Positions 3,836 to 59,672 of a stretch of 64,000 nt of DNA are shown here, in pieces. A model generated the notes under the pieces. The model saw only the letters and a list, made by a program, of their open reading frames with translations, was not told the DNA's origin and made no database searches. Source of the stretch: Brevibacillus massiliensis (GTDB taxonomy: Bacteria > Bacillota > Bacilli > Brevibacillales > Brevibacillaceae); assembly GCF_000311785.1 (NCBI RefSeq), contig NZ_HE978539.1:57431-121430 (forward strand), given 5' to 3'. A program made the translations under genes and the position numbers. Each line of letters begins with the position of its first letter. Within the stretch, counting starts at the first letter, position 1.

Positions 3836-3932
3836 TCAAACAGCAATTTGACTGTGTTGTTTGTGAAATGCAATGTGGATAAGAATGGCTCATCTGGCAA
3901 CGGTGATAACCAGCCAATCGGAATTGGCGAAA

Positions 3933-6055: not shown

Positions 6056-6874
6056 ATGGACAGCGTAAGCTTGCCTGCACGGCTCAGTGTAATCGATACC
6101 ACTTCCGCAATCATGACTGGGGACATAACAGTGCCTTTTGCTTTTGACGAGGTATACGGACGGCAGGTAGGAGAAGGGCTGCTGGAACCAACCGTTCATA
6201 TCTGGAGGCATCAAAGAGCATTTGTGCTGGGCTCAAGAGACTGGAAGCTTCCGCAGGTCCAGGAGGCAATCAAGTGGCTGCAGGGTCAGGGATATTCGGT
6301 CACGGTCCGCAATTCGGGAGGAGCAGCCGTTCCCTTGGATCCTGGGGTTGTCAATCTGTCGCTGATTTTGCCCAACCGGCAAGGCAGTCTGGATGTACAG
6401 CGCCATTTTGTCCTGATGGCTGAGCTTATTCGCCAGAGCCTCGAACGTTGGGCTTGCAGGGTCAGCACAGGCGAAGTAAGCGGCTCGTACTGTCCCGGAG
6501 AATTCGACGTAAGCGTGAATGGAAAGAAGTTCTGCGGGATTGCCCAAAGAAGGCAAACCAGGGCGGTCATCATCCAGGCATTCGTGCTGGCAGAAGGCAG
6601 CGGGGAGGCCAGAGGGAGGCTGGTCAAAGCCTTTTATGAACGCGCTGCCGGAGGATCATCTTCAGCGGATCATCCCATTGTGGAACCGGCGAGCATGTCC
6701 AGCCTTTCCGAGCGGCTTGGCAAGTCAAGCGCAGAATCGTTTGTCAGATTGATCAAACAGCAGCTTGCACTGCAGGGACTCTTTGCCGAGTATCGCGACT
6801 ATTCGCCGTTCAAACTGGAGGGTGTGCAAAAAACGGTTGAGGAGTACCGAAGAAGATATCACGTGCACGTGTAA
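6056..6874 (+). CDS. lipL: Octanoyl-[GcvH]:protein octanoyltransferase-type LipL
   Basis: A 272-residue member of the BPL/LplA/LipB fold. It has GGAAVPLDPGVVNLSL (the arginine-asparagine-serine-glycine-glycine pocket) and GSYCPGEFDVSVNGKKFCG followed by IAQRR, placing the acyl-carrying cysteine at about residue 146, as in B. subtilis LipL. LipL moves octanoyl groups from GcvH to E2 subunits in lipoate synthesis. The start is ATG 6056 behind GAAAGGAG. It is 22 bases after acoR and ahead of acoABCL, whose E2 (AcoC) needs lipoylation, so it likely supplies that modification. A lipoate ligase activity cannot be excluded from sequence alone. Confidence 0.82.
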   Translation: MDSVSLPARLSVIDTTSAIMTGDITVPFAFDEVYGRQVGEGLLEPTVHIWRHQRAFVLGSRDWKLPQVQEAIKWLQGQGYSVTVRNSGGAAVPLDPGVVNLSLILPNRQGSLDVQRHFVLMAELIRQSLERWACRVSTGEVSGSYCPGEFDVSVNGKKFCGIAQRRQTRAVIIQAFVLAEGSGEARGRLVKAFYERAAGGSSSADHPIVEPASMSSLSERLGKSSAESFVRLIKQQLALQGLFAEYRDYSPFKLEGVQKTVEEYRRRYHVHV

Positions 6875-53224: not shown

Positions 53225-54178
53225 ATGAAAAGAAGGTTTCTGTTGCTTGCACTCATCATCTTGTCCCTCGCTTCCATTTTTATTGGAGTCAAGGATATTA
53301 CGCCCTTGGACCTGTTCCATCTGTCTGAAGACAAAGCCCAAATCCTGTTGGTCAGCAGGCTGCCGCGGCTGATCAGCATCATCATTGCCGGGGTCAGCAT
53401 GAGTGTATGCGGATTGATCATGCAGCAGCTCAGCAGGAACAAGTTTGTATCACCGACTACCGCCGGCACGCTGGATTCTGCCCGGTTGGGCATTCTGGTT
53501 TCCCTGATGGCATTCGCTACGGCCAGTCCCTTCCTGAAGATGCTTGTCGCCTTTGTCTTTGCACTGCTCGGCACGTTTCTGTTTATGAAAATTCTCGAGA
53601 GGATCAAGTTCAGGGATACGATCTTCATCCCGCTGGTGGGGCTGATGTTCGGCAACATCATCAGTTCGATATCGACGTTTTTCGCCTACAAGTACGATTT
53701 GATTCAAAACATGTCGGCTTGGCTGCAGGGGGATTTTTCCCTGATCATGAAGGGCAGGTACGAACTGCTGTATGTGAGCATTCCTTTTTTGGTCCTGGCG
53801 TATCTATTTGCCAACAAATTTACCGTCGCGGGGATGGGCGAGGAGTTTTCCAAGAATCTGGGCCTGAACTACAAGCAGGTGGTCCGGATCGGCTTGATCA
53901 TCGTGGCACTCGTCACTTCCTCTGTCGTACTGACAGTCGGGACGATTCCATTTTTGGGTCTGATTATTCCGAACATCGTCTCCATCTACCAGGGAGACCA
54001 TTTGAAAAAAAGCTTGCCTCACACGGCGCTGCTCGGGGCTGTCTTCATCCTGTTTTGTGACATCCTCGGCCGGATCATTCTCTATCCGTACGAGATATCC
54101 ATCAGCCTTACCGTCGGCGTGATTGGAAGTGGTATCTTTGTTTATTTACTGATGAGGAGAAGGGCACATGGGGTATAA
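53225..54178 (+). CDS. yclN: Ferric-siderophore ABC permease (YclN-like)
   Basis: A 317-residue FecCD permease of the petrobactin (YclN/FatD) group. RLPRLISIIIAGVSMSVCGL then IMQQLSRNKFVSPTTAGTLD is the conserved first coupling segment; VGTIPFLGLIIPNIVSIYQG is the C-terminal GLIxPN motif. About nine to ten helices. It forms a heterodimer with the next permease. Start ATG 53225 with GGGAGAG. The Fur box is directly upstream. Confidence 0.92.
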   Translation: MKRRFLLLALIILSLASIFIGVKDITPLDLFHLSEDKAQILLVSRLPRLISIIIAGVSMSVCGLIMQQLSRNKFVSPTTAGTLDSARLGILVSLMAFATASPFLKMLVAFVFALLGTFLFMKILERIKFRDTIFIPLVGLMFGNIISSISTFFAYKYDLIQNMSAWLQGDFSLIMKGRYELLYVSIPFLVLAYLFANKFTVAGMGEEFSKNLGLNYKQVVRIGLIIVALVTSSVVLTVGTIPFLGLIIPNIVSIYQGDHLKKSLPHTALLGAVFILFCDILGRIILYPYEISISLTVGVIGSGIFVYLLMRRRAHGV

Positions 54179-55118
54179 GGCAAAGACGTGGTTCCTCGCT
54201 GTCATCGCCGTGATATTGATAGCCGTCTTTTTGTTCATAAGCATTGGAAGCAGTTGGGACTACATACTGCCGAGAAGGGCTGCCAAGGTGTTTGCGATAC
54301 TCTTGACCGGGGGATCGATCGCATTTGCGACGACCGTTTTCCAGACGATTACGAACAATCGCATCCTCACCCCCAGTATTTTGGGCCTGGATTCCCTGTA
54401 CTTGATGATTCAGACGATTGTCGTGTTTCTGTTTGGTTCCAAGACCCTGACGATGGGCAGCAGCAATCTCAACTTTGTCGTTTCGGTCGGTTTGATGATC
54501 CTGTTTTCGGGAGTGTTGTACAAAGTCATCTTTAAGCGGGAGCAGCAAAACATTTACTTTCTGCTGTTAATCGGTTTGATTTTCGGCACACTCTTTCAAA
54601 GCATGGCAACATTTATGCAGGTGCTGATCGATCCAAACGAGTTTCAAATCGTCCAGGACAAGATGTTTGCCAGTTTTAACAATATCAAGACAGACCTGCT
54701 CGGGATTGCCGGCATCTCCGTCCTGCTCGTCTCTGCCTACTTTCGCAAGTTTATCAAGTATCTGGATGTGCTTTCCCTGGGCCGAGAGCAGGCGATCAAC
54801 CTCGGGGTCGATTACGATTACGTCGTAAAACGGCTGCTGATCGTCGTCGCGATCCTGATCTCCGTTTCGACAGCGCTGGTCGGGCCGATTACGTTTCTGG
54901 GGCTGCTGGTCGTCAATGTCACGTATGAATTTTTCAAAACCTACCGGCATCAGTATCTGCTTCCGGGTTCCATTCTGGTCAGCATCGTCGCTTTGGTCGG
55001 AGGCCAGCTGATTGTTGAAAGGGTCTTTACCTTCGCCACAACCTTAAGCGTGATCATCAATTTCTGCGGCGGAGGCTACTTTCTATACCTTTTGTTAAAG
55101 GAGAACAAATCGTGGTAG
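54168..55118 (+). CDS. yclO: Ferric-siderophore ABC permease (YclO-like)
   Basis: A 316-residue second FecCD permease. YILPRRAAKVFAILLTGGSI, TNNRILTPSILGLDSLYLMI, LGREQAINLGVDYDYVVKRL and GPITFLGLLVVNVTYEFFKT match the YclO/FatC subfamily. It overlaps yclN by 11 bases (ATG 54168), giving translational coupling and stoichiometric pairing. Confidence 0.92.
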   Translation: MGYKAKTWFLAVIAVILIAVFLFISIGSSWDYILPRRAAKVFAILLTGGSIAFATTVFQTITNNRILTPSILGLDSLYLMIQTIVVFLFGSKTLTMGSSNLNFVVSVGLMILFSGVLYKVIFKREQQNIYFLLLIGLIFGTLFQSMATFMQVLIDPNEFQIVQDKMFASFNNIKTDLLGIAGISVLLVSAYFRKFIKYLDVLSLGREQAINLGVDYDYVVKRLLIVVAILISVSTALVGPITFLGLLVVNVTYEFFKTYRHQYLLPGSILVSIVALVGGQLIVERVFTFATTLSVIINFCGGGYFLYLLLKENKSW

Positions 55119-55870
55119 AAGCAAAACATGTTTCCAAGCTGTACGCAGGCAAAAAGGTGATCGACGATGTGACCGTGACCATCGGAAAAGGCAAGATAAC
55201 CTCCTTTATCGGGCCAAACGGAGCAGGCAAAAGCACCTTGCTGTCGATGATCAGCCGTCTGATCTCCAAGGATGCAGGGCATATATACATAGACGGAAAG
55301 GAGCTGGGCCAGTGGAAAAGCGGCGACCTCGCGAAAAAAATCTCCATCCTGAAGCAGTCCAACCACATCAGCCTGCGGTTGACGGTCAGAGAACTGGTTT
55401 CCTTTGGGCGCTTTCCTTATTCGCAAGGCAAGCTTTCAAAAGAAGATGGGAGGTATGTGGAGGAAGCGATTCGGTACATGGAGCTGGAGGAGATGCAGCA
55501 CAAGTACCTCGACCAGCTGAGCGGCGGCCAAAGACAGAGGGCCTACATCGCCATGGTCATCGCCCAAAATACAGAGTACATCCTGCTCGACGAGCCGTTA
55601 AACAACCTGGACATGAAGCACTCTGTGCAAATCATGAAGATCTTGAAGCGGCTGGTGGATGAGCTTGGAAAAACCATCGTGATCGTCATCCACGACATCA
55701 ATTTTGCCTCCTGCTATTCGGACACGATCGTTGCGCTAAAAGCAGGCAAAATCGTCCGGGAAGGCACTCCGGACGAGATGATGGATCCTGTGGTGCTGCG
55801 GGAAATTTACGAGATGGAGATGAAAATCGAGACGGTGGATAACCATAAAATTTGCATTTATTTTTCCTGA
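55112..55870 (+). CDS. yclP: Ferric-siderophore ABC ATPase (YclP-like)
   Basis: A 252-residue ATPase of the FepC/FhuC group. Walker A GPNGAGKSTLLSMISRL, ILKQSNHISLRLTVRELVSF, signature LSGGQRQRAYIAMVIAQ, Walker B ILLDEPLNNLD and switch VIVIHDINFASCYSD. Start GTG 55112 after AAGGAG, overlapping yclO by seven bases. Confidence 0.93.
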   Translation: MVEAKHVSKLYAGKKVIDDVTVTIGKGKITSFIGPNGAGKSTLLSMISRLISKDAGHIYIDGKELGQWKSGDLAKKISILKQSNHISLRLTVRELVSFGRFPYSQGKLSKEDGRYVEEAIRYMELEEMQHKYLDQLSGGQRQRAYIAMVIAQNTEYILLDEPLNNLDMKHSVQIMKILKRLVDELGKTIVIVIHDINFASCYSDTIVALKAGKIVREGTPDEMMDPVVLREIYEMEMKIETVDNHKICIYFS

Positions 55871-55910
55871 ATCATGGCTTCAATCAAAAAACTGATAAGA
55901 GGTGGATAAA

Positions 55911-56864
55911 ATGAAACAAGTACTTCTATTTTTCACGATCGCATTGGCGGCTGTCTTTGCGGCTGCGTGCGGTTCCAACAGTTCCAATACCGCTGCAGTG
56001 CAGGACACGGATGCAAACCAGGCGGGCGAAGAGCTGACGATCAAGCATGAGCTGGGGGAGACGCAAGTTAAGAAAAACCCATCCAAAGTGGTTGTGTTTG
56101 ACTTCGGCACGCTCGATTCCCTGGATAAGCTGGGGATTGAAGTGGCGGCATTGCCAAAAAGCAGCATTCCTCCCTATCTGGAGAAGTACAAGGATGACAA
56201 ATACGTAAACGTAGGCAGCCTGAAAGAGCCGGATTTTGAAAAAATTCATGAGCTGCAGCCCGATTTGATCATGATCTCGGGAAGACAGTCCGACCTGTAC
56301 GATGAGTTTAAGAAGATTGGACCTACGATTTATCTGGGTGTTGATACATCGCGTTATATGGAGTCATTTGCCGAGAACGCGAGAACATTGGGGAAGATTT
56401 TCGACAAAGAAGCCGCTGTCGAGGAAGAACTGGCGAAAGTGAATGAATCGATCAAGCAACTGCACGAAAAGGTATCGGCAAGCAAACAGAACGCTCTGAT
56501 CATCCTGGCCAATGACGGAAAAGTCAGCGCCTATGGAGCGGGTTCCCGCTTCGGAATTATCCACGATGTATTCGGCTTCACGCCTGTTGATGACAAGATA
56601 GAGGTGTCGACTCACGGGCAGAGCATCTCTTTTGAATACATCGTCGAAAAAGACCCGGATTATCTGTTTGTCATCGACCGGGGCACAGTGGTAGGCGGCA
56701 CATCGTCGGCAAAAAATGTTGTGGAAAACGAGTTGGTCAAAAACACGAAAGCGTTTAAAAACAACCATATTGTCTACCTTGATCCGAATTACTGGTACCT
56801 TTCCGGCGGAGGACTTGCTTCCGTAGCGGACATGGTTAAGGAAGTAGCAGACAGCATCAGGTAG
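55911..56864 (+). CDS. yclQ: Ferric-siderophore binding lipoprotein (YclQ-like)
   Basis: A 317-residue extracytoplasmic binding protein of the FhuD/YclQ fold. Lipoprotein signal ends at AAAC near residue 20. Body: NPSKVVVFDFGTLDSLDKLG, VNVGSLKEPDFEKIHELQPD, SKQNALIILANDGKVSAYGA, GQSISFEYIVEKDPDYLFVI. In B. subtilis YclNOPQ imports petrobactin and related catecholates; homology suggests the same ligand class. ATG 55911 is preferred over GTG 55902 because AGAGGTGG overlaps the latter. Confidence 0.92.
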   Translation: MKQVLLFFTIALAAVFAAACGSNSSNTAAVQDTDANQAGEELTIKHELGETQVKKNPSKVVVFDFGTLDSLDKLGIEVAALPKSSIPPYLEKYKDDKYVNVGSLKEPDFEKIHELQPDLIMISGRQSDLYDEFKKIGPTIYLGVDTSRYMESFAENARTLGKIFDKEAAVEEELAKVNESIKQLHEKVSASKQNALIILANDGKVSAYGAGSRFGIIHDVFGFTPVDDKIEVSTHGQSISFEYIVEKDPDYLFVIDRGTVVGGTSSAKNVVENELVKNTKAFKNNHIVYLDPNYWYLSGGGLASVADMVKEVADSIR

Positions 56865-56872
56865 AGAATGTT

Positions 56873-56899: not shown

Positions 56900-56972
56900 G
56901 CTGTTAAATGATGTTAAAATTATAGGGGGAATTATCTATATTTATTCTGAAAGCGCGAAGGGGGAAAGCGGA

Positions 56973-58553
56973 TTGCACTTCAAGGATCATAAAGACTCTG
57001 ACTCTGCCGTGAAGAAGGGCACCCATCTGGGGCAGCTTGCGTCAGTAGGGCAAATCGCTGCTGGAATTGCACATGAGGTAAAAAATCCCTTAACAGCCGT
57101 CAAAGGTTTTTTACAATTACTAAAAGAGGACTATAAGGATTCGTATTTGGAAATTGCCCAAGCGCAATTGCAGAATGCTCTCCTGACGCTGGAAAATTTA
57201 CTGCATGTCGCCAAGCCCGACTTGGAAACGGAACCCGATCAAACCGTTAATTTGTCCGTAGAATTGGAGTCCCTCATCAACCTCTTTCAAGATCAGATTT
57301 ACCGCGTAGAGATTACAAAGGACTTTTCCGATACGGAAGCCTTGGTGTACGGAAAAAAGAATCAACTGAAAAAAGCATTTTTCAATCTCTTAAAGAATTC
57401 ATTTGAGGCAATACCAGAACAGGGCTCGATAACGATTGAACATTTTGTCAAAGACGGGAATGTAACCGTTTCGATCCAGGACACGGGAGTCGGCATTCCC
57501 GAAGACAAGCTGTCTATGCTGGGAACCCCGTTCTTCTCGACGAAAGTGGATGGAACAGGGATGGGATTAACCCAGGTGTTCTCGGTTATCTATCAGCATG
57601 GAGGGGAGATCCAGGTCTACAGCAAAGAAGGAGAAGGGACGAAGTTTGTCATCACGATTCCCAAGGAATCCAAAAAGATAACACGTAGAGTGATGGATTT
57701 GGACTTGCATTTTGAGAAGGGTCTCAACCTGAAAGGGTTTCTTATCAGGAACCGGGAGAACTTTGAGGAGCGCCTGCTTGCGGAAGCAGTCAATGTCAGG
57801 GGAAAAATAGACGAGATTCAGCGGACTGGAAACGTCAACCTGCTGGACAACGCCCACAAGCTTGTGCACTACATAGTTGATGCCCAAGAACACGAAGTGA
57901 TTTCCTTTGCGCAAGAGGAAGGGATCTCATGGGCCAAATACTCGCTAACCCTGGCTTTTAAGCTGGAGTGGATCCAAACAATCCGAAGAGTACTCTGGGA
58001 ATTCCTGTACAATTACGATCGCCTGTGTGATAGGGAGAATAGCCGCGAACATTTTTACTCACTGGAAAAAAGCATTAATGAATTGATCGATCAATTCCTT
58101 CATTATTTCTTTATCAGTTATTCGCAGTACAAAGATGAATTGATCCGCAAGCAAAGGGAGACCGTGCGGAACTTATCTGTGCCGATCATCCCGCTGACTG
58201 CCTCGATGTGCATTCTTCCCCTGATTGGGACGATCGATTTGCAGCGAGCTGCTGAAATCGGGGAGAAAGTGATTACCCAGATAGGTGCAAATCGAATCGA
58301 AGTGTTGATCATTGATTTTTCCGGTGCTGGTGAAATCGAAACCCAGGTCCTCAAACATTTGATGAATCTCTTGGATGGCGTAGCCATGATGGGATGTCAA
58401 GCGGTTATCACGGGATTGCGCCCGGAAACGGTGAAATTGATGATCAGTCAGGGCTTGTCATTTGAAAACAAGGCAGTGACCAAAGGCACGCTGCAACAGG
58501 CATTAGTGGAATACCTAACCTTACAAAAGAAAAATGACGCTTCACTTGTATGA
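56973..58553 (+). CDS. Cytoplasmic histidine kinase fused to RsbR-like STAS protein
   Basis: A 526-residue protein with no membrane helix. Residues about 15-85 form a HisKA dimerisation domain with phospho-acceptor H34 in AGIAHEVKNPLTAVKGFLQL; about 120-232 an ATPase domain with N box AFFNLLKNSFEAIPE, G1 DTGVGIPED and G2 GTGMGLTQVFSVI. Then a helical RsbR-N-like segment (about 250-400) and a STAS domain (about 405-515) with IIDFSGAGEIETQVLKHLMN, retaining the Ser and Thr positions modified in RsbR. Start TTG 56973 after GAAGGGGGAAAG. No response regulator or RsbT gene is adjacent. Confidence 0.85.
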   Translation: MHFKDHKDSDSAVKKGTHLGQLASVGQIAAGIAHEVKNPLTAVKGFLQLLKEDYKDSYLEIAQAQLQNALLTLENLLHVAKPDLETEPDQTVNLSVELESLINLFQDQIYRVEITKDFSDTEALVYGKKNQLKKAFFNLLKNSFEAIPEQGSITIEHFVKDGNVTVSIQDTGVGIPEDKLSMLGTPFFSTKVDGTGMGLTQVFSVIYQHGGEIQVYSKEGEGTKFVITIPKESKKITRRVMDLDLHFEKGLNLKGFLIRNRENFEERLLAEAVNVRGKIDEIQRTGNVNLLDNAHKLVHYIVDAQEHEVISFAQEEGISWAKYSLTLAFKLEWIQTIRRVLWEFLYNYDRLCDRENSREHFYSLEKSINELIDQFLHYFFISYSQYKDELIRKQRETVRNLSVPIIPLTASMCILPLIGTIDLQRAAEIGEKVITQIGANRIEVLIIDFSGAGEIETQVLKHLMNLLDGVAMMGCQAVITGLRPETVKLMISQGLSFENKAVTKGTLQQALVEYLTLQKKNDASLV

Positions 58554-58756
58554 ATGATTCCTTGAATAGTGGCTGCCGTCCGGTTATGGCGGGTTTTTGA
58601 TCACTCGCTATAACTTTTTTTTGTCAATTTATGAGCAAATCGCGAATAATAGGCACTAAGAACCAGGAAATATGTAACTTCATGTTGAATGGTGTCAAAA
58701 TTTGTGCTACATTTTGCATTGAACAAAACTCACATGATAATTCAAAAGTCACAGCA

Positions 58757-58848
58757 TATTCCGATACGGGCAAACTCATCGAAAGGTGGGGACGCAAAGC
58801 CATGGGTCTGTGGTTCTGACTGAACTATGATCGCCAGGTTGCCGAAGA
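58757..58848 (+). ncRNA. Cyclic di-GMP-I (GEMM) riboswitch
   Basis: The conserved GEMM elements appear in order: ATACGGGCAAAC, the GGTGGGGACGCAAAGCCA tetraloop-receptor block, GGGTCTGTGG and GATCGCCAGGTTGCCGA. It lies ahead of an EAL phosphodiesterase gene with a terminator between them. A short frame across the region (58631-58819) is not a gene. Confidence 0.95.
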
Positions 58849-58940: not shown

Positions 58941-59672
58941 ATGTCTCAGTGTGAAACAAATGAGAAAGTCAACGAATTGATCCAAAAAAAACAATACTAT
59001 CATTCCTATCAGCCGCTTTTCAGGTTTAGCGATTGGGAACTGTTTGGTTATGAAGCATTCTTCCGTTGTGAATCTTTCACCCCAGAAGCTCTCTTCACAA
59101 GCCCGTTGGAACAAGACTTGATGTTCGAATTAGATACGGTATCCATATATGAAGCCATTATGTCCTATGCCCGATCGATGACTTCTGCGCCCAAAAACCT
59201 GTTTGTGAATATTCTGCCCTCAACACTACTCCACCCATCGCTGCCGTCTTTCTTGGAAAAGTTGTATGCCACAAACTCCGTTCCCAGTAGATACATCGTA
59301 TTTGAAATCAATGAAGCGGAAGAAATAGCCGACTATAGGGCTTTCGGCGAAGCGATCAGCCGTTTGCGCCGGGCGGGATTCCGGATTGCTCTCGATGACG
59401 TCGGAAAAGGAGTCGCCTCTTTGCGAAGAATCGTGGAAGTAGAACCGGACTATATCAAATTGGATCGATATTTTGCAACCAATTTGTCCAGATCACCGAA
59501 AAAACAAAGATTGATTCAGCTGCTCGTGACGTATTGCCAGGACCATACATATCTGATTTTGGAAGGTATAGAGACACCTGAAGATCTGGCTGCAGCCAAG
59601 GTGCTGGGTGTCGACATAGGACAGGGCTATGTTTTGGGCAAGCCTGCAGCCTTGCAGCAAGGGAATTCATAG
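58941..59672 (+). CDS. EAL-domain cyclic di-GMP phosphodiesterase
   Basis: A 243-residue stand-alone EAL protein. Catalytic residues can be followed: the EAL signature appears as YEAFFR, the metal-binding Asn is in FVNILPSTL, Glu in FEINEAEE, Asp pair in IALDDVGKG, Lys in IKLDRYF, Glu in LEGIET, and the end is GQGYVLGKP. The third motif letter is F rather than L, which is tolerated in some active enzymes. The gene is controlled by a c-di-GMP riboswitch, giving a likely feedback circuit, and is followed by CheX. Confidence 0.9.
   Translation: MSQCETNEKVNELIQKKQYYHSYQPLFRFSDWELFGYEAFFRCESFTPEALFTSPLEQDLMFELDTVSIYEAIMSYARSMTSAPKNLFVNILPSTLLHPSLPSFLEKLYATNSVPSRYIVFEINEAEEIADYRAFGEAISRLRRAGFRIALDDVGKGVASLRRIVEVEPDYIKLDRYFATNLSRSPKKQRLIQLLVTYCQDHTYLILEGIETPEDLAAAKVLGVDIGQGYVLGKPAALQQGNS

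Follow-up and report, generated by a model that had tools for sequence, protein, structure and literature searches.

Gene structure and genomic context

The window, a stretch of 64,000 nucleotides from Brevibacillus massiliensis, carries a gene that we call HK-RsbR, which encodes a histidine kinase core, an RsbR-like segment and a STAS domain in one chain (Table 1). The frame is open throughout and all of these domains are present in it, which confirms the first-pass annotation of a single gene. A frameshift or a pair of separate genes was looked for and none was found. We also considered, and discarded, an artefactual join of two genes through frameshift or misassembly, given the open frame and the 43 fused relatives that could be aligned.

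An alternative start, the ATG at 56868, extends the frame by 35 residues, a hydrophobic stretch included, to 561 aa. The sequence AAGGGGGAA lies ahead of the TTG, at 56958-56966. In four relatives (L015-L018) the longest frames start 17-32 residues ahead of a conserved LASVGQ region, which in the window protein lies about 20 residues from the TTG and about 55 from the ATG. Since these frame starts resemble the TTG distance and not the ATG distance, the TTG is the likelier start.

The neighbours of the gene are unrelated: a siderophore ABC operon lies upstream, and downstream come a c-di-GMP-I riboswitch, the EAL gene that it directly precedes, and a CheX-like gene. These three may possibly form a c-di-GMP feedback.

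Table 1. Features in and around the HK-RsbR gene (positions in the window).
Feature	Position	Strand	Remarks
Siderophore ABC transport operon	53225-56864	+	Binding protein SstD-like, below the model's cut-off
HK-RsbR gene	56973-58553	+	TTG start, 526 aa; single open frame
HisKA (dimerisation/phosphoacceptor), residues 26-83	57048-57221	+	Pfam 2.6e-12
HATPase_c ATP-binding domain, residues 128-232	57354-57668	+	Pfam 1.1e-23
RsbR-type helical domain (non-heme-globin-like) and long linker helix, residues ~250-401	57720-58175	+	AlphaFold helices; 7b0u overlay
STAS domain, residues 409-499	58197-58469	+	Pfam 8.1e-9; RsbR PDB alignment; family alignment
Terminator-like hairpin	58582-58615	+	3' of the HK-RsbR gene; pattern scan, consensus match only
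c-di-GMP-I riboswitch	58759-58846	+	82.4 bits
EAL gene	58941-59672		

The kinase core

The HisKA, HATPase_c and STAS domains all score above the Pfam curated cut-offs. The phospho-acceptor, His34, lies within AAGIAHEVKNPLTAVKGFLQLL and is kept in all 44 aligned fused proteins, as are the ten positions examined across the H, N, G1, F and G2 boxes, of which the last four, all in HATPase_c, are intact in the window protein. The window protein thus has what characterises a HisKA histidine kinase, namely both Pfam domains above cut-off and the H, N, G1 and G2 residues. A Pfam scan of the window protein matched no sensor domain N-terminal of the kinase, in agreement with the earlier description of a kinase pair with nothing of that kind ahead of it.

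Among PDB sequences the kinase half best matches KinB (3d36, 2.8e-32), with ZraS a close second (5.5e-31), and its H-box motif is presumably of the same type as that of KinA. The NCBIfam order is AtoS, ZraS and then KinD (2.3e-35), and the score falls below every equivalog cut-off listed. AtoS is also the top NCBIfam match for five other kinases of the window genome, with KinD second to fourth, so this ranking says little about output. Nevertheless, as ZraS comes near KinB in the PDB search and both AtoS and ZraS rank above KinD in NCBIfam, the regulator may be other than Spo0F. These rankings, together with the adjoining EAL/CheX pair, would suit an ordinary orphan histidine kinase acting on an unrelated regulator (AtoC/ZraR-like, or in chemotaxis/c-di-GMP signalling), with the STAS domain serving only for dimerisation or ligand binding. 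The window protein itself is consistent with such a reading, but the rsbT pairing and Thr retention in its relatives, described below, speak for the STAS domain as a site of regulated Ser/Thr signalling, and we consider the orphan kinase unlikely.

The RsbR-type half

A PDB sequence search with the C-terminal 297 residues gave Listeria RsbR (7b0u) at 1.8e-22, aligned over residues 120-289. The AlphaFold model of the C-terminal half (mean pLDDT 82.3, pTM 0.54) consists of six helices, a 44-residue helix and a STAS fold. Its top match in Foldseek is the Listeria stressosome RsbR (1.5e-10, rmsd 5.5), and VIA-align superimposes 268 of the 274 chain residues of the 7b0u RsbR (Z 17.5, rmsd 4.6); RsbS equals RsbR in VIA-align, but for the STAS part alone (Z 17.7). 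The full-length model is weak (pTM 0.39), and histidine kinases make up most of the 50 Foldseek matches listed for it. In NCBIfam, residues 418-544 of the 561-aa reading match the YtvA family model in its C-terminal portion (2.2e-22, below cut-off).

The first-pass annotation had described the middle segment as RsbR-N-like. The Pfam RsbRD_N profile (PF14361) did not match the window protein, and it was seen once among ten proteins scanned, in a fused relative (L128) and below cut-off (19.4 of 24.3 bits). The segment is, however, 47-54% identical along its length to ten orthologues that lack the kinase (hereafter HK-less), seven of them beside rsbS-rsbT-rsbU. It is on this identity and on the structure comparison, not on RsbRD_N, that we call it RsbR-like; the description holds in these respects and fails in its Pfam profile. 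The N-terminal domain of RsbR proteins has been described as a non-heme globin (PMC7522486), and the arrangement typical of RsbR, an N-terminal domain of this type followed by a helix and STAS, is found here with a kinase added N-terminally. By sequence and model, then, the window protein is a histidine kinase followed by an entire RsbR.

The STAS domain proposed earlier was recovered by the Pfam profile search, and DFSG and the ET position are kept as had been noted: D448 and S450 are identical in 44/44 fused proteins, and the threonine of ET, T457, occupies the second RsbR phosphosite. The first phosphosite, a Thr in RsbR, is Leu423, so the window protein (L423/T457) does not have the two RsbT-target Thr of an RsbR. 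The corresponding pair is T175/T209 in the Listeria register (PDB alignment) and is given as T171/T205 for Bacillus subtilis RsbR (PMC3944199).

Occurrence among Bacilli

A scan of named genomes yielded 15 loci. Four are fusions (L015-L018; Paenibacillus, Cohnella), and ten from Bacillaceae (L019-L028) hold the RsbR half alone, seven of these downstream of rsbS-rsbT-rsbU. The remaining locus, from Paenibacillus cookii (L029), has both halves, with a frameshift at a T run (near 3840-3915). The genus-level search sample was the window's own genome alone; within its family, 16 of 39 genomes gave a match. In the class sample, 76 of 398 Bacilli genomes matched at 1e-25, RsbR paralogues included; the fusion is present in 39 of the 398 and an HK-less orthologue in 24.

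A genome was counted as fused when its locus had been fetched and a single frame spanned the kinase and the RsbR half, the window serving as the locus of G000. This excludes G021, G240 and G015, whose copies are broken, split or partial, and G115, whose locus was not fetched. Eighteen of the 24 HK-less loci were fetched, and six (G253, G332, G324, G300, G361 and G377) were classed solely from the length of the open frame. The alignment of 44 fused proteins consists of the 39 plus G033 and L015-L018, the last five from outside the class sample. The full alignment of 80 rows omits partial or broken loci (L060, L061, L063, L064, L155 and L134) and ten duplicates; it scores L029 as HK-less, the kinase being in another frame. 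The tree omits L120_A. One of the broken copies, L155, has an internal stop at 6074.

Of the 16 family matches, three (G015, G021 and G034) are broken or partial; together with the frameshifted Paenibacillus cookii copy, they might suggest that the gene is decaying in the window lineage and does little there. The window copy, however, is intact and has every motif residue examined, and in the RsbR half its identity to a relative (L047) reaches 68%; we therefore regard decay as highly improbable.

Pairing with RsbT

A gene of rsbT type lies upstream of the fused gene, overlapping its start by longest-frame starts, in 22 of the 44 cases. The earlier statement that HK-RsbR has no adjacent partner gene is thus correct for the window, with its unrelated neighbours, but not for half of the aligned family. 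In a further three fused genomes RsbT is present but not beside RsbU, and we refer to all 25 as having a dedicated RsbT, labels that were assigned by hand.

No RsbT structure was found in the PDB by sequence and no RsbT model among the NCBIfam matches, so these proteins were named from synteny with rsbS/rsbU and from a profile of canonical RsbT. Built from seven canonical RsbT alone, this profile gave 58-124 bits for 21 adjacent RsbT, as against 25 for the SpoIIAB of the window genome; seven ATP-site positions were identical in all 21. The profile test covered 21 of the 22 adjacent proteins; the one outside it is the divergent RsbT of G391 (1e-21; locus L150).

Of the 25 proteins with a dedicated RsbT, all but L120, which has T/K, retain the Thr pair of the phosphosites (24 of 25; 21 of the 22 with adjacent rsbT). 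None of the 19 without a dedicated RsbT does, the window protein (Leu/Thr) among them. Six of these 19, the window protein included, retain a single Thr. The Fisher p of this difference is 1.4e-11 with relatedness not removed, but the association comes down to three independent contrasts for dedicated RsbT (a mean of 2.9 as expected, none against; sign test p 0.25), or six for strict adjacency (2.8 in the expected direction, 3.2 without difference). Three loci (L147-L149) keep both Thr without an adjacent rsbT. Nine of 12 genomes searched separately gave no RsbT-level match; eight of the nine are aligned and lack the Thr pair. At the level of sequence, the dedicated rsbT and the Thr pair appear to have been lost together.

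No full-length RsbU match was obtained in 28 of the 58 genomes searched. Among the fused genomes it is missing from 18 of the 25 that have a dedicated RsbT and from 7 of the 19 that do not, counts assigned by hand in a setting where partial PP2C matches are found in many genomes and a very divergent RsbU could escape. In those 18 genomes RsbT must therefore act on something else. Where full-length RsbU is missing, HK-RsbR would offer RsbT an obvious substrate in its STAS domain and an obvious output in its histidine kinase.

In the window genome, the sigB operon reads ndoA-rsbT-rsbU-rsbV-rsbW-sigB-tex (L040 3834-7063, contig C25), with no rsbR or rsbS. No second RsbT was found in this genome, the sole one being that of the operon. 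A genome-wide search recovered five STAS proteins, of which HK-RsbR is the only RsbR-like one, and there was no RsbS match at E 1e-20 in this genome, where an RsbR would have its RsbS partner, or in same-family genomes of the class sample, using a profile built from three Neobacillus/Bacillus sequences that a divergent RsbS could escape. The genome also holds a second partner-switch set (L041 4089-7950, contig C2) comprising an anti-anti-sigma STAS protein, a 411-aa HATPase_c_2 protein and a 709-aa PP2C protein.

The first-pass annotation had proposed that two-component phosphotransfer and stressosome-type Ser/Thr regulation meet in one chain. The architecture and the rsbT-paired relatives support this in part, but in the window Leu423 and the lack of an RsbS match and of a second RsbT speak against it. 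With one Thr lost and no dedicated RsbT, Ser/Thr control of the window protein itself is doubtful, and stressosome-type regulation is better supported for its relatives.

Relationship to the stressosome

The operon of the window genome raises the question of whether HK-RsbR could stand in for a stressosome, alone sequestering RsbT and so governing RsbU, RsbV, RsbW and SigB, with the kinase part as a sensor or accessory output. The complete rsbT-rsbU-rsbV-rsbW-sigB set, the lack of an RsbS match and the position of HK-RsbR as sole RsbR-like protein all accord with this, and phosphorylation-independent signalling, able to proceed without the phosphosites, has been reported for the Bacillus subtilis stressosome (PMC3944199). 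Yet 17 other genomes of the window's family have RsbT with neither an RsbR-like nor an RsbS match (the rsbT neighbourhoods were inspected in four of them), so such a partner is unneeded there and the fused protein is not an obligatory SigB regulator. Nor can SigB control via RsbU be the common function when so many of the fused genomes, with or without a dedicated RsbT, have no full-length RsbU. We consider the substitution improbable.

RsbS is nearly absent alongside the fusion: it was found in 2 of 39 fused genomes (G077 and G147), versus 23 of the 24 with an HK-less orthologue, the exception being G034 (Fisher p 7e-14, relatedness not removed). The main HK-less clade (27 rows, support 100/98) is nested inside the fused proteins, in a tree whose root, placed at midpoint with a long outgroup branch, is uncertain. 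G034 falls outside this clade and has a kinase remnant just upstream of the surviving RsbR half (L053 2318-2513), the only such remnant in the 29 HK-less loci examined. Because the HK-less clade nests within the fused proteins and G034 holds a kinase remnant, we favour an order in which the fusion came first; the reverse, an HK-less ancestor with a later fusion, is disfavoured on the same grounds. The simplest reading would be that loss of the kinase left an RsbR half, which then joined the stressosome.

More tentatively, and at somewhat less than even odds, RsbT and HK-RsbR may form a self-contained unit in which a stressosome-type Ser/Thr kinase switches a histidine kinase through its STAS domain, without RsbS and often without RsbU, toward the sporulation phosphorelay. 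The HK-less RsbR of Bacillaceae stressosome operons would then be descendants by kinase loss, the module having donated a part to the stressosome and not the reverse.

Predicted signalling and output

The reading that we favour, with a probability of roughly 55%, is that HK-RsbR is a sporulation-type histidine kinase governed by its C-terminal RsbR-like sensor, with RsbT as ancestral partner and a Thr switch that has decayed in the window lineage. The kinase is putatively soluble, and its input would be the C-terminal module of non-heme-globin-like sensor, long coupling helix and STAS. The chain would dimerise through the DHp helices of the kinase and the RsbR part alike, and how fast His34 is autophosphorylated would depend on changes in the globin/STAS part. 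From His34 the phosphoryl group would pass to a response regulator encoded elsewhere in the genome, with Spo0F the likeliest, and hence to Spo0A.

In the presumed ancestral form, which many Bacilli retain, the adjacent RsbT would bind the STAS domain and phosphorylate both Thr, resulting in a Ser/Thr switch on a His kinase that needs no RsbS and often no RsbU. The adjacent rsbT being absent and one Thr lost in the window lineage, the kinase there is probably under ligand or conformational input to the RsbR module, not RsbT phosphorylation.

An output through Spo0F and Spo0A is what we infer from the kinase matches and the company of the gene. By a count made by eye, 38 of the 39 fused genomes have Spo0A, which is common anyway (325 of 398 overall); the one fused genome without a match, G198, is 91% complete. 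In G003 (L131 3475-6436), spo0A, rsbT and HK-RsbR are consecutive, with spo0A ending about 235 bp ahead of the rsbT frame. Its sister G026 has spo0A 3.3 kb away, and in the other carriers with listed coordinates the distance exceeds 200 kb or spo0A is on a different contig.

Comparison with known systems

The C-terminal half of HK-RsbR overlays the whole length of the Bacillus and Listeria stressosome RsbR (7b0u, 6qcm), but the window protein differs from these in having an intact kinase in front, Leu at the first phosphosite and no RsbS match in its genome. Of the sporulation kinases KinA-KinE, KinB is the best PDB sequence match of its kinase core, although ZraS and AtoS score about equally or better; unlike these kinases it has its sensor, an RsbR module, at the C-terminus, and its transfer to Spo0F is a prediction. 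The helical domain also resembles in fold the Bacillus anthracis sporulation inhibitors pXO1-118 (3pmd; 141 residues aligned, VIA-align Z 13.8) and pXO2-61 (3pmc; 127 residues, Z 13.2), values that are borderline for helical bundles, whose chance matches can score nearly as high. Their chains, of 153 and 132 residues, are too short for a STAS domain or a kinase, unlike HK-RsbR.

Two known systems merge both kinds of signalling. RsbK of Bacillus cereus is described as a membrane-bound hybrid kinase that acts through a receiver-PP2C protein, RsbY, and so feeds the SigB partner switch (PMC7522486); two-component signalling is joined to partner switching there as it is here, but HK-RsbR has kinase and RsbR in a single chain, which in relatives comes paired with RsbT. 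For Vibrio vulnificus, a stressosome without RsbU is described and RsbT-dependent phosphorylation of a downstream sensor kinase, VvD1, has been proposed, although the authors report no positive RsbT-VvD1 interaction (PMC9237108). RsbR, RsbS, RsbT and the kinase are separate proteins in that account (PMC9237108), whereas HK-RsbR unites RsbR and kinase in one chain and RsbS is missing. A fusion of RsbR and histidine kinase paired with RsbT was not described in the titles and abstract openings of the literature matches listed.

General stress response and sporulation are presented as alternative fates in such bacteria (PMC7522486), and HK-RsbR may connect stress sensing with the decision to sporulate. 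Together with the RsbT that neighbours it in many species, it would allow both Ser/Thr and His phosphorylation to be tested in vitro with just two proteins. The signal sensed by the globin-type domains of RsbR was described in 2016 as unidentified for Gram-positive stressosomes (PMC4976288), and autophosphorylation of HK-RsbR would offer a readout for what these domains sense.
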